DNA from: Dehalococcoidia bacterium | GTDB lineage: Bacteria; Chloroflexota; Dehalococcoidia; JACPQF01 | NCBI GenBank assembly: GCA_030650265.1 | Contig: JAUSEJ010000187.1 | Span: 1 to 7,610 of the forward strand | DNA: 7,610 nt | Direction: 5' to 3' | In this document: positions 2,993 to 7,610 of the stretch, piece after piece | Position numbering within the stretch: position 1 is the first letter of the stretch | How the letters are laid out: each line of letters opens with the position of its first letter | Position numbers and translations under genes: made by a program | The notes under the pieces: generated by a model | Told to the model about the DNA's origin: nothing | What the model saw: only the letters and a program-made list of their open reading frames with translations | Database searches by the model: none

Positions 2993-3400
2993 TTCTGTAT
3001 GAAAGGTAAAACTAAAACCTTCGAAAAGGTCTTCGCCTTGAGGCTTTGACAGGGGTTCCATTTCCTCTGACCCTGAAGACAGCTCCGGAAGCCGTTGTCA
3101 GAAAAGAAGAACTCTAATCCAGCGCGGCATCAAGTGATTCCTCTCAAGCATGCAGCTGCTTGCATATCCTGAACCCCATTGCCCGGCTCGAATCCGACCG
3201 CTGGCTGCCGACCAACGCCAAGTTGCAAGCGACGCCTTACAGTATCATGTTGTGGGCAGCATTACTATTCTGGTCATGAGGGTGAGCGCTGCTGGCAAGA
3301 TCCTGCGACTCCAAGGATCAGTGGCGAGTGGGGCTCGGATTGTTGTTCCGTTGAGATCAGAAGTAGAATCACCTTCGGAAGAAACGCTGAGGAGGAAGGT
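2993..3400. other. Intergenic stretch after tRNA-Lys, no gene recognised
   Basis: A small hairpin ACCTT-CGAA-AAGGT (3017-3030) lies 25 bases after the tRNA and could help end its transcript, but no real T tract follows. A consensus TTGACA occurs at 3046-3051 without a plausible -10 at 16-18 bases. Open frames run through 3150-3428 and 3179-3400, but they carry no recognisable domain and no ribosome binding site. No direct copy of the tRNA 3' end is visible, so there is no attachment-site evidence. The last ten bases hold the strong GGAGGAAGG binding site of the next gene. Confidence 0.5.
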
Positions 3401-4270
3401 ATGTCGTCTGAGGCGGAAGATGAGTTGAAGAAGCGGTTTAGCCAGTTGATTGAGCACAGCATACTAAAGAGCGAAGAAGTCGAGCTGAGGGCTGGCGATT
3501 TGGCAAAGCATGGGCGATACGCTCGGGATCTAGGTTTGACGGCCAGAGAACGGCTCAAGTATGCCACTGCTTCTTCTGTCGATTGGAGGCGCATGATAGG
3601 GACATTGCAATACTCGAATGAACAACAGGACCAGATTCTTTCGGGCCTTCCCACGTTCATAGGGACAGCAACAAGCGCAAGCACAGCGGCCGCTTCCTCC
3701 ATGACCGGACTTGCCGATTACGAGGCTGTGTGCACATACGCGCCAAGACAGGAGTGGGAACAGGCGAGACGCGCTGCCGAGGAATTATCGGCGGTGATCG
3801 ACAAGTTCGCGGAGAAGGAGGAGGTGAAGAAGCTTCTACGACAGTTTGGTTTAGATAATGCCACGGCTGGCGAGAAGAGCCCCCTAGAGTTGTTTGAAAC
3901 GGCTCATGCGGCATTCGATAAACCTGTCATTGAGGGATCTCCGGTAGTCACCTCTTTGCTGCCTATGAGAGAGTGCATCAACGGGATCGTTGCAGCGTTA
4001 CTCCGGCTCCGCCCTAGGCAAGAACCGGCCCGCAACGAAAAGGACAAGGTGGTCTCCGTTTGGAAACAGTGCGCCGTCTCCGGGGTTTCACAAACGGCAA
4101 TCGACGCCTTGGCGCAGCAGTGGTACGACTTGCACAACGAGTTGTCTGACTTCAAACAAAAGGGATGCAGTCGCACGGAATGGAGAGACCTTCTTCGCAA
4201 GACAACGCTGCTTCTTGTTGGCCTCTTGCGTATTCTTGACCCGGCGAGGCTTAGGCAGGTGCGGGGCTAA
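3401..4270 (+). CDS. Hypothetical protein, probably all-helical, function unknown
   Basis: I do not recognise a named domain. The 289-residue protein appears soluble and mainly alpha-helical: a charged N-terminal helix (DELKKRF, from residue 7), a Ser/Thr/Ala-rich linker at about 89-100 (TATSASTAAASS), a strongly charged helix near 120-145 (QARRAAEEL, EKEEVKKLL) that may form a coiled coil, and a C-terminal helical half. The segment LLPMRECINGIVAALLRLRPRQEPARNEKDKV (from about 190) looks like a conserved core that recalls uncharacterised bacterial proteins, but I cannot name the family. There is no signal peptide and no certain membrane segment; LLLVGLLRIL near the C-terminus is short and amphipathic. 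The start at 3401 is fixed by GGAGGAAGG directly upstream; a longer in-frame reading from 3179 lacks such a site. It sits downstream of tRNA-Lys and overlaps the next convergent gene by four bases. Confidence 0.75.
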   Translation: MSSEAEDELKKRFSQLIEHSILKSEEVELRAGDLAKHGRYARDLGLTARERLKYATASSVDWRRMIGTLQYSNEQQDQILSGLPTFIGTATSASTAAASSMTGLADYEAVCTYAPRQEWEQARRAAEELSAVIDKFAEKEEVKKLLRQFGLDNATAGEKSPLELFETAHAAFDKPVIEGSPVVTSLLPMRECINGIVAALLRLRPRQEPARNEKDKVVSVWKQCAVSGVSQTAIDALAQQWYDLHNELSDFKQKGCSRTEWRDLLRKTTLLLVGLLRILDPARLRQVRG

Positions 4271-4623: not shown

Positions 4624-4653
4624 TTCACAAATAGGGGCGGTTGCCCTTACAAT
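4624..4653 (+). promoter_or_regulatory. Candidate sigma70-type promoter for the heliorhodopsin gene
   Basis: TTCACA (4624-4629), an 18-base spacer and TACAAT (4648-4653) each match consensus at 5 of 6 bases. The predicted start near 4660 leaves a leader of about 37 bases, ending in the strong ribosome binding site GGAAGGAGGG (4683-4692) before the ATG at 4697. This suggests the gene is expressed from its own promoter rather than by read-through. Confidence 0.55.
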
Positions 4654-4696
4654 GGGGACTGAACACGGCATTAACAGCTAGTGGAAGGAGGGTGCT

Positions 4697-5470
4697 ATGC
4701 CAATGTGGTCTGATTTTCATAGACTGAGGTCTTACAATGCGGCCATGGGGTTCCTGCACCTGGCACAGGCGGTGGCCATATTCCTCCTGAGCAACGACTT
4801 CTCTCTCCCCGCCACGACGTCTTTTCTCAACTTCGATGCCTCGACCAGGACACTCACCCCGGTGACAGAGACAGTGTTCAGGCTTCCCTTCGGTCCTCTG
4901 GTCGCATTATTCCTGCTGCTTTCAGCCGTAGCTCACTTTACCATCATTTCGCCCGGGGTGTTCGGCTGGTATGCCAACAACTTGAAGAAGGGCATCAACT
5001 ATGCCAGGTGGATCGAGTACTCGCTCAGCGCTTCCCTGATGATAGTCCTCATCGGCATGTTGTCCGGCATGTACGATGTGGCAAGTCTGATCCTGGTCTT
5101 CGTTCTCACCGCGGTGATGAACCTGTGCGGCCTGGTCATGGAGATCCACAATCAGACCACGGAGAAAACAAACTGGACCTCCTACGCGGTGGGCTGCATT
5201 GCCGGTATAGCCCCCTGGATTGCCATCGCCATCTACTTCTTCGGCTCGGTATCGAACGGAAAGGGGGCGGTGCCGACCTTCGTGTACTTCATATTGCCCA
5301 TTCTGTTCGTCTTCTTCTTCAGCTTCGCCCTGAACATGTTCCTGCAGTACAAGAAGGTCGGGCCATGGAAGGACTACTTGTTCGGCGAGCGAGCGTACGT
5401 GTTGCTCAGCCTGGTGGCCAAGTCGGCGCTGGCCTGGCAGGTTTTCGCGGGCACTCTCAGGCCAATGTGA
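4697..5470 (+). CDS. Heliorhodopsin (retinal-binding seven-helix photoreceptor)
   Basis: Heliorhodopsins are retinal-binding membrane proteins with inverted topology (N-terminus in the cytoplasm) and slow photocycles, thought to act as light sensors rather than pumps. This 257-residue protein has seven hydrophobic segments at roughly 13-33, 66-86, 103-123, 127-149, 161-183, 192-217 and 232-254. A long A-B loop (36-64), a family hallmark, separates the first two. Key residues are in place: His21 in FLHLAQ, His80 in VAHF, the Schiff-base counterion Glu107 in RWIEYSLS of helix 3 (same number as in the prototype 48C12), and Lys242 in SLVAKSALAWQVF of helix 7, with Ser238 four residues earlier. 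RWIEYS and the helix 7 motif separate it from type-1 rhodopsins. The start has GGAAGGAGGG upstream. The TspO-like gene follows 141 bases later on the same strand; no retinal synthesis gene is nearby. Confidence 0.95.
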   Translation: MPMWSDFHRLRSYNAAMGFLHLAQAVAIFLLSNDFSLPATTSFLNFDASTRTLTPVTETVFRLPFGPLVALFLLLSAVAHFTIISPGVFGWYANNLKKGINYARWIEYSLSASLMIVLIGMLSGMYDVASLILVFVLTAVMNLCGLVMEIHNQTTEKTNWTSYAVGCIAGIAPWIAIAIYFFGSVSNGKGAVPTFVYFILPILFVFFFSFALNMFLQYKKVGPWKDYLFGERAYVLLSLVAKSALAWQVFAGTLRPM

Positions 5471-5611
5471 AAGCTGTCCAGGTCATCATACGGGGCTGCC
5501 GCCGTTGGGCGCGCGCAAAGTGACCGCTGTTGCCGTGGCATTGGCCTTGCGGTCTTCTTGGAATTGGCGTCTCTCAGGTTGGCACCTTGAGGACGGAAGG
5601 AGCTTGAGCGG

Positions 5612-6091
5612 ATGACATGGCCTGACGTAGCAAAGCTGATAGCAAGCATTGTCCTTTGTGAAGGGGCCGGCGCCATCGGGGCCATTTTCACCACTAAGGC
5701 CATTCCAACCTGGTACGCCGGCTTGAGAAAGCCTGCTCTTACGCCTCCCAACTCAGTCTTCGCCCCTGTTTGGATTACGCTCTACCTGTTGATGGGGATA
5801 GCGGTGTTCCTGGTCTGGCGGGAGGGATTGGCCAATGACATGGTGAGGATCGCCTTCACAGCCTTCTGGATTCAACTGGCGTTGAACATCCTGTGGTCGG
5901 CGGTCTTCTTTGGCCTCAAATCCCTGCTGGGCGGTGTGGTCCTGATCCTGCTGCTCTGGATAGCCATACTGGTTACCATCATCCTGTTCTTCAGGGTATC
6001 CGCCGTGGCCGGCGGGATCCTCATTCCATACATAATCTGGGTCAGCATAGCCTCCAATTTGAACGTGCGCATCTGGAGGCTGAACCAGTGA
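5612..6091 (+). CDS. tspO: TspO/MBR family tryptophan-rich sensory protein
   Basis: TspO proteins are five-helix membrane proteins that bind porphyrins and other tetrapyrroles. Bacterial members are tied to light- and oxygen-dependent control of pigment genes, stress responses and light-driven protoporphyrin breakdown. The 159-residue length is typical. Helices fall at about 8-28, 48-70, 80-101, 105-126 and 132-155. Family motifs are WYAGLRKPALTPPN (34-47, with Trp34, Lys40, Pro41, Pro45, Pro46), FAPVWITLY (50-58), QLALNILWSAVFFG (88-101) and PYIIWVSIASNLN (139-151). AAGGAG nine bases upstream supports the ATG at 5612. It lies 141 bases after the heliorhodopsin stop on the same strand with no clear terminator or strong promoter between, so read-through is possible. 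The exact ligand and reaction are unknown. Confidence 0.93.
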   Translation: MTWPDVAKLIASIVLCEGAGAIGAIFTTKAIPTWYAGLRKPALTPPNSVFAPVWITLYLLMGIAVFLVWREGLANDMVRIAFTAFWIQLALNILWSAVFFGLKSLLGGVVLILLLWIAILVTIILFFRVSAVAGGILIPYIIWVSIASNLNVRIWRLNQ

Positions 6092-6178: not shown

Positions 6179-6613
6179 CTAGCCGGGCACTACAACGTGA
6201 TTCTCTCGAAAACCAGCTATGATGTATCGTTCCACGGCTACTCTCATCAGCGCCGTGTTATTGTCAGCCACGAACGCGCCGAGGACCGGATGCTTATGCA
6301 TATAGACTTTCATCAGGTGTTCCCGATCATCCCCGATGCATTCTGTAGCCCGGCCCACGGCAGTGACTGCAATCGCTTGGCTGAAATCTGATTCTTGGTT
6401 CGATCGGCTGTCCACCAAGACGGCCACTGCCGGATTGTTGTGGATGTTGCGGTACTTGAGCGTCTGACGAGGGGTTGCAAACACAATATGCTTCAAGTCG
6501 TTTGTTACCGCAAAGGCTATGAGATTCGCGTATGCCCCGCCTTCGCCATGAGTTGCCAAGACCGCAAGCGACCGCGATTCGAAGAAGCCACCCAGTTCCG
6601 ATAGGCCGAGCAA
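6179..6613 (-). CDS. Pyridoxamine 5'-phosphate oxidase-related FMN-binding split-barrel protein
   Basis: This is a 144-residue protein of the PNPOx-like split-barrel superfamily; members bind FMN, F420 or heme and many are of unknown specificity. Family features are the opening LSELGGFFESRSLAVLATHG, ANLIAFAVTNDLKHIVFATP (about 29-48), KYRNIHNNPAVAVLVDSR (53-70, typical cofactor-contact strand region), AVTAVGRA and the C-terminal ALMRVAVERY strand. The start is uncertain. TTG at 6613 is chosen because AAGGGGGG lies just upstream and the family similarity begins there. ATG at 6658 adds 15 residues without a clear binding site, and ATG at 6796 adds 61 cysteine- and arginine-rich residues unlike the family. 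The gene converges on tspO, 87 bases apart. A role in flavin- or heme-linked redox chemistry is plausible; true PNP oxidase activity in B6 synthesis is not supported. Confidence 0.85.
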   Translation of the reverse strand: MLGLSELGGFFESRSLAVLATHGEGGAYANLIAFAVTNDLKHIVFATPRQTLKYRNIHNNPAVAVLVDSRSNQESDFSQAIAVTAVGRATECIGDDREHLMKVYMHKHPVLGAFVADNNTALMRVAVERYIIAGFRENHVVVPG

Positions 6614-7017
6614 TCTAATCCCCCCTTGATTCCAGACAACCGTAACCGCCCTTGGCATAGACCCGGTTTCCGCGGGCTCTGCACCGTTTCGGGCACATCC
6701 CCTGAGAGACCATTCTACCTTCTCTGCACCCAAGCGTGCAGCACATAGAACGTCCTTCACATGCCACTTTTCAATGGCACATAAGGAGGCACACAAGGAT
6801 GAAAAGGTGCCCTCTTCCAGATCAACTCCAGAGTTGCTTATCCCCTTCGTGCTGCCCTCAGCAAGTGAGCGCCGTTCGAGTCCTGCACGCTAGGCCGTAC
6901 AGAACAGTTCCCGAACTGAAATTCGAGAAAAAGCGGCTTGTGGCTTCCATTCAGCATCTCCTCACTTCATCTGCTTGATCTTGAATACTCCTCGGTCCCG
7001 ACTGATGCCCGAGCATG
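6614..7017. other. Intergenic stretch, no gene supported
   Basis: Between the flavin-barrel gene and the divergent XRE regulator I see no recognisable gene. A plus-strand ATG at 6799 has AAGGAGG nine bases upstream and would encode about 59 residues (starting MKRCPLPDQ, ending LLTSSA), but the composition is unlike a known small protein. The upstream extension of the flavin-barrel frame (6614-6796) is also poorly protein-like. The promoter of the flavin-barrel gene should be here but no clear -35/-10 pair was found. Confidence 0.45.
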
Positions 7018-7069: not shown

Positions 7070-7610
7070 ATGATCGGCAAACGTTTGAGACAGACCCGGC
7101 TGTCCCGCAACCTTTCCCTGGATGCGCTGGCAGCCAAAATGGGAGGCATCGTAACGAAGCAGGCCCTGTCAAAATACGAGCTTAACAAGGCGCAGCCGTC
7201 TCCTGTGGTCCTGGGTAAGCTGTCTGCTGCCCTGGGGATGAAGGCCATAGACCTAACAGTGGAGCCCTCAATAACGGTGGAGTTCATCGCCTACCGGAGG
7301 ACCTCGGGTCTCCTGAAGAGAGACCGTGCCAGGGTCGAGAGCATTGTTGAGCAATCGTTGGAAGAACGGGTCCGTTTGCAGGAGTTGGCTGGACAGACTG
7401 ACGGCTCTTCAATTCCGATAAGGGCACTTCCGGTACGGAGCCTGGAAGAAACGGAGGTTGCCGCAGAACAACTCCGTGCCACGTGGCAGTTGGGGCTCAA
7501 TCCGATCGCTGACCTTACCTCAACATTGGAGGATCACTTTGTGAGCGTGCTGGAAGTGGAAGCCGGTGGCGAATTCGACGGCATTGCCGCAATTGCCTAT
7601 GACGCGGACC
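7070..7610 (+). CDS. XRE-family HTH regulator, HTH-ImmA/IrrE type, 3' end cut by window
   Basis: The first 180 codons are present and the frame stays open to the window end. Residues 5-56 form an XRE/Cro-type helix-turn-helix: IGKRLRQTRLSRNLSLDALA, then TKQALSKYELNKAQPS as recognition helix and wing. The region after residue 65 (VEFIAYRR, LLKRDRARVESIVEQ, LEETEVAAEQLRATWQLGLN, then PIADLTSTLED and VLEVE) matches the usual linker and start of the ImmA/IrrE (DUF955) metallopeptidase domain in XRE-ImmA fusions. The HExxH zinc motif would lie beyond the edge and cannot be checked. Such proteins often act as repressors that are inactivated by proteolysis under stress or govern mobile elements. The start has GGGAGG seven bases upstream and a near-consensus promoter flanked by palindromes. 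Confidence 0.85.
   Translation, partial: MIGKRLRQTRLSRNLSLDALAAKMGGIVTKQALSKYELNKAQPSPVVLGKLSAALGMKAIDLTVEPSITVEFIAYRRTSGLLKRDRARVESIVEQSLEERVRLQELAGQTDGSSIPIRALPVRSLEETEVAAEQLRATWQLGLNPIADLTSTLEDHFVSVLEVEAGGEFDGIAAIAYDAD

Follow-up and report, generated by a model that had tools for sequence, protein, structure and literature searches.

Gene content of the locus

The DNA analysed here, called the window below (7,610 nucleotides in all), carries an intact heliorhodopsin gene and, directly 3' of it on the same strand, a gene of the TspO/MBR family about which the initial annotation was silent. The features of the locus are as follows:

404-2992 and 7070-7609: unremarkable genes, for a thioredoxin-reductase-like protein, QueF, enoyl-CoA hydratase, tRNA-Lys and an HTH regulator truncated by the window's end
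3179-4270, + strand: open frame 5' of heliorhodopsin, unmatched in Pfam
4624-4653, + strand: promoter-like TTCACA-18-TACAAT
4683-4692, + strand: ribosome-binding-site-like GGAAGGAGGG, read in the sequence, preceding the heliorhodopsin ATG
4697-5470, + strand: heliorhodopsin, 257 aa, intact, ATG start and TGA stop
5471-5611, + strand: heliorhodopsin-TspO intergenic gap of 141 bp, in which neither strand shows a match resembling a promoter or a terminator
5595-5602, + strand: ribosome-binding site GGAAGGAG, read in the sequence, preceding the TspO start
5612-6091, + strand: TspO/MBR family protein, 159 aa, assigned from Pfam PF03073 and solved TspO relatives
6179-6796, - strand: PNPOx-like flavin/F420 oxidoreductase (PF01243, 3.2e-11; TIGR03618 below cut-off)

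The promoter-like match was the only one on the + strand between 4271 and 6180, and it is weak, as two matches were found over both strands when 0.9 were expected. For the frame at 3179-4270, NCBIfam gave no match to the portion starting at 3398, and no homologue was found in loci L001-L133.

Identity, fold and selection of the heliorhodopsin

The protein encoded at 4697-5470 is, with near certainty, a heliorhodopsin. Pfam family PF18761 matched residues 10-254 (E 3e-101, 338 bits against a cut-off of 26.7), no other Pfam family being present in the protein at E 0.01, and the NCBIfam HeR equivalog NF038020 gave 347 bits (cut-off 100). All six matches in a sequence search of solved structures are named heliorhodopsin, with TaHeR (6is6) first at 3e-82 and 48C12 (6su3) at 1e-61, and homologues numbered at least 7999, among 8000 candidates scored. 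The initial annotation had named this family and proposed an HMM search and a structure prediction as checks; Pfam, NCBIfam, solved structures and predicted fold all bear the name out, and the best matches did not fall in a non-rhodopsin family.

His21, His80, Glu107, Ser238 and Lys242, the residues singled out in that annotation, proved invariant in all 21 aligned sequences, the window's protein counted. The column shared with Glu107 holds E in 6is6 and D in 7clj, an entry titled as an E108D mutant. Lys242 and Glu107 align with their TaHeR equivalents and are placed in helices 7 and 3 by the predicted model; they are the predicted retinal lysine and the predicted counterion, and alignment and fold match suggest that they face each other. 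The AlphaFold model (pLDDT 76, built on 21 sequences) displays a seven-helix pattern, in which the helix 2-3 region is listed as two helices, and an A-B loop hairpin with strands at 36-47 and 52-64. Among the 50 matches listed, its TM scores over the query length were 0.83-0.87 to the heliorhodopsins TaHeR and 48C12 and 0.50-0.66 to other rhodopsins. TaHeR of Thermoplasmatales archaeon SG8-52-1 (6is6, 7u55), which shares 52-53% identity with the window's protein in the fold alignment, is alike in its seven-helix fold, A-B hairpin, and counterion and Schiff-base columns; its absorption is given as 543-555 nm (PMC9385722). The two differ in host, as TaHeR comes from an archaeon whereas the window would belong to a Chloroflexota bacterium, with TspO as the following gene. 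48C12 (6su3, 6uh3) belongs to the same family and fold and is farther in sequence than TaHeR, at 45% identity in the fold alignment.

Divergence between homologues points in the same direction as these conserved residues. dN came to 0.17-0.20 in comparisons with five relatives at 73-76% identity and to 0.51 with a remote one, while dS reached 1.1-2.2 in three of the six pairs and was saturated in the remaining three. The resulting dN/dS (NG86), about 0.08-0.17 for the three pairs with a computable dS, indicates that the gene is under purifying selection. Relic or pseudogene status is ruled out by the intact frame, the invariant residues and the low dN/dS. The earlier reading of a likely functional protein is thereby supported, family matches and fold included, and the heliorhodopsin is very probably working. 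We also have good grounds, in residues and model, to expect that it binds retinal and is photoactive. Heliorhodopsins characteristically bind all-trans retinal, absorb visible light, run through a long photocycle and have a cytoplasmic N-terminus (inverted topology), traits that would be predicted here as well. A viral origin of the gene was considered and set aside, a scan of viral contigs having yielded no relative.

Host and distribution

The host is most readily read from the sequence as a Dehalococcoidales-like Chloroflexota bacterium, probably uncultured. The three nearest among the best 80 genome loci listed are MAGs titled Dehalococcoidales (73-75% identity in heliorhodopsin), both of the homologues that carry an organism name among the 120 rhodopsin homologues listed are "Chloroflexota bacterium", and those TspO homologues that bear a name come from Dehalococcoidales or Chloroflexota. 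In a quick tree of 121 heliorhodopsins, the window fell in a branch of eight rows (SH-aLRT 96) made up of titled Dehalococcoidales together with genomes from the same order. The Chloroflexota-type genome proposed earlier is thus supported, and narrowed, by nearest loci, named homologues and tree.

Of 156 genomes in the order of the nearest relative, which is titled Dehalococcoidales, 47 have heliorhodopsin, a count that includes fragments, two genomes (G055 and G108) showing broken pieces only; in the phylum, 56 of 400 sampled genomes have it. Three draft genomes (G002, G104, G209) each carry two heliorhodopsin genes, on separate contigs. Chloroflexota heliorhodopsins are already in print, for example from SAR202 (PMC10444878), and Chloroflexi are named in the neighbourhood analysis of PMC8612252. 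The gene being common in both order and phylum, with such published cases, its occurrence in this lineage is unsurprising, and the view that a retained light receptor would be surprising here was overstated. As a gene, this heliorhodopsin is ordinary, a further member of a known family.

The TspO gene and its pairing with heliorhodopsin

Pfam family PF03073 covers model positions 2-145 of 145 in the downstream gene (E 1.2e-44), the solved-structure relatives of which are the TspO entries 2mgy, 4uc1 and 4ryi. Since the equivalog NF047825 remained below its cut-off (134 of 180 bits), we assign the gene to the general TspO/MBR family only. It lies 141 bp downstream of heliorhodopsin on the same strand, and both genes have good ribosome-binding sites; transcription of the two on one messenger appears fairly likely from this arrangement. 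The gap is long for an operon, which counts against co-transcription.

The same order recurs among the 156 genomes of the order. In G131, TspO directly follows heliorhodopsin on the same strand after 24 bp, and in G065 after 30 or 36 bp, depending on the start codon. These two genomes are close relatives with near-identical loci, so that their pair was counted as one event. Their heliorhodopsins fall in another, well-separated branch, the G131 protein sharing 47% identity with that of the window. On the contig of the G131 pair, frames resembling an IS21-type transposase pair were read by eye some 2 kb farther on (L170, 465-2795).

It is quite possible that the window simply holds a stand-alone, ordinary heliorhodopsin beside which TspO lies by chance, each gene acting independently. 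In line with this, the 80 titled-genome loci (flanks of up to 8 kb, many shorter) yielded no TspO gene, a result on which TspO was rejected as a general heliorhodopsin neighbour; the neighbours of heliorhodopsin are highly variable, the gap in the window is wide, and in nine other genomes (G013, G106, G330, G003, G055, G067, G133, G160, G322) heliorhodopsin and a strong-match TspO lie on different contigs. Against chance stand the recurrence in a second heliorhodopsin branch, with its much shorter gaps, and the probability of at least one TspO in the slot after heliorhodopsin, roughly estimated at 0.0014 for the 44 full-length loci of the order and at 0.05 under generous assumptions (either side, either strand, TspO in every genome). 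In view of this recurrence, of these estimates and of the small number of cases, we regard the pairing as probably real but rare.

Presence of the two genes was not associated across the order (8/19 vs 39/137, p 0.29, five genomes with weak TspO matches being placed in the group of 137). On the TspO tree (46 rows), two sub-branches around the TspO of the window and of G131 held heliorhodopsin in 9 of 10 genomes versus 2 of 32 elsewhere (p 1e-6), a result that we do not rely on, the sub-branches having been delimited after inspection of the tree and one of the nine genomes, G055, holding a broken fragment only. The wider branch of 17 rows gave 9 of 15 genomes versus 2 of 27 (p 4e-4). This tree omits short pieces (G249, G445, G091 and the second rows of G483 and G151) and weak matches (G018, G019, G136, G154, G156, G167, G202, G265, G375, G425, G434, G453), among which G136, G265, G375 and G425 carry heliorhodopsin. 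When set on a host tree of 55 of 60 genomes (an RpoB match being absent in G065, G104, G110, G092 and G157), the link between sub-branch and heliorhodopsin fell short of significance, with three pairs one way and none the other (median p 0.25).

Other neighbours of heliorhodopsin

The next same-strand gene was examined in 140 loci, of which 135 had room for one and 91 a candidate frame, some of these surely spurious; the phylum search contributed just 18 new loci to this set, not all 56 genomes. DegV occupied the position in 11 loci (L173, L174, L012, L017, L166, L176, L186, L190, L192, L198, L203) and TspO in three, the window included and the other two near-identical, while each remaining group accounted for at most two. 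DegV has already been published as a neighbour of heliorhodopsin (PMC9385722). At some DegV loci, DegV is followed by the 181-aa membrane family described below and DUF1295, and DUF2177 precedes. A SOUL gene lay within about 1.1 kb of heliorhodopsin in five loci (L191, L206, L035, L068, L232). Near Chloroflexota heliorhodopsins, this haem-binding protein is encoded on the same strand in L191, L206 and L232 and on the opposite one in L197; in the three archaeal loci L030, L035 and L068, it is on the opposite strand and at most 4.6 kb away.

These counts, together with the published DegV neighbour, are the basis of another reading, in which the slot after heliorhodopsin would accommodate a general lipophilic-ligand module, that is, a carrier of fatty acid, haem or porphyrin (DegV, SOUL, TspO), and heliorhodopsin would regulate membrane-lipid or tetrapyrrole traffic in the light. 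We consider it rather unlikely, the grouping of the three families being our own and made after the list had been inspected, and the slot holding none of them at most loci.

A PNPOx-like oxidoreductase gene lies on the strand opposite to heliorhodopsin in seven loci, namely the window, L018, L042, L045, L204, L207 and L210. In the window it faces the heliorhodopsin-TspO pair, and it is doubtful that it belongs to the same module.

A family of membrane proteins with 178-181 aa and five helices (alignment A2, from P0244-P0361) also recurs near heliorhodopsin in related loci. It had no sequence match in the PDB and, for the one member scanned, no Pfam match over cut-off. Its model resembles BcTSPO, a fold match that stands without support from sequence, since PF03073 matched none of 34 members and a profile comparison with TspO gave results no better than controls. 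TspO homology by sequence was accordingly rejected as unsupported, and the family may share the TspO fold, as judged from the model.

Retinal supply

Known retinal-forming enzymes were absent over cut-off from the heliorhodopsin-bearing genomes. PF15461 (Blh type) was over cut-off in none of the 156 genomes of the order, with one weak match below it, and PF03055 in none of the 47 that bear heliorhodopsin; PF00494 passed in two of these 47, G065 and G131. The same two genomes (loci L238 and L239) carry both the adjacent heliorhodopsin-TspO pair and the only squalene/phytoene synthase genes among the 47. In G131, the PF00494 gene adjoins a squalene-hopene cyclase, a polyprenyl synthetase and a radical-SAM gene (Pfam), and the order of frames in G065 is alike by eye. 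Given the neighbouring squalene-hopene cyclase, we read both as hopanoid clusters, and carotenoid synthesis in these genomes was rejected as unsupported. Fourteen control genomes gave matches for PF03055 and PF00494 and none for PF15461, which makes the latter search the least controlled. Missing genes may also be gaps, as the genomes are mostly drafts, and the search covered known families, which a novel cleavage enzyme would escape. Since none of the 47 genomes shows a recognised retinal-forming enzyme over cut-off, the pigment is probably imported or formed by a route not yet described. The same absence would agree with a lost photoreceptor function, the apoprotein having been retained for another role for want of host retinal, but this is very improbable, as a retinal-free role would not obviously need the invariant retinal lysine, counterion and both histidines that purifying selection has maintained.

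Proposed role of the pair

On balance, we favour the view that the locus encodes a working heliorhodopsin light receptor, co-transcribed with TspO as its likely partner, the pigment being taken up. The receptor is well supported; the coupling to TspO is read from the order of the genes, an arrangement seldom met. Lys242 would carry retinal as a Schiff base, Glu107 serving as the counterion, and isomerisation of the retinal by light would change the shape of heliorhodopsin, which may have the sensing role suggested for its family. Transcribed together with it, TspO would be the likely partner, a small membrane protein whose hydrophobic ligands would be porphyrins and perhaps retinoids; elsewhere, TspO is known to bind porphyrins as well as retinoic acid. 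Retinal would probably be taken up, the related genomes having no known way to make it.

The downstream gene shares its family with the solved proteins 4uc1 and 8e7x, which we take to be TspO/CrtK of Rhodobacter. According to PMC4926414, TspO was first discovered within a carotenoid cluster, and Rhodobacter TspO binds retinoic acid and adjoins the pigment genes of a phototroph, whereas no carotenoid cluster was seen in the related genomes here. In anoxic Bacillus cereus, deletion of tspO is reported to lead to porphyrin build-up; TspO is important there for keeping porphyrins in balance when oxygen is absent (PMC13185565). Functional coupling between heliorhodopsin and TspO is a possibility that we hold tentatively, and it could take two forms: heliorhodopsin might tune porphyrin handling by TspO in the light, or TspO might supply or buffer a retinoid for heliorhodopsin. 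We rate the porphyrin version slightly above the retinoid one. A broader proposal would make Dehalococcoidia heliorhodopsin a recurrent partner of TspO-type proteins, drawing on at least two independent pairs with true TspO (the window; G065/G131) and on the family of about 180 residues with a putative TspO fold encoded near heliorhodopsin at other loci, the pair being perhaps a receptor and a retinoid-capturing or porphyrin-handling membrane partner; we find it unlikely in this general form.

Partner genes have been described for other heliorhodopsins, namely glutamine synthetase (PMC9529153), photolyase (PMC9769723) and an ABC transporter (PMC11109279), systems which resemble the window in that an adjoining gene has been put forward, or demonstrated, as the partner of the receptor. 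Among the papers searched, none names heliorhodopsin together with TspO, and for other names of TspO the 15 best of 1,133 papers do not mention heliorhodopsin. The main texts of PMC11109279 and PMC8612252 do not use the word TspO, and the ten groups of neighbours given in the former do not include it.

The pairing bears on what heliorhodopsins signal to and on the source of the pigment in hosts without retinal synthesis. If the link with TspO fails, the gene described here simply adds to an already large family. As a neighbour of known ligand class in two heliorhodopsin branches, TspO offers a specific and testable partner, both proteins being small membrane proteins that can be co-expressed in E. 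coli. If true, the receptor-TspO pair would explain the use of heliorhodopsin in organisms without retinal synthesis, and the pairing hints at light use or pigment acquisition in such microbes.
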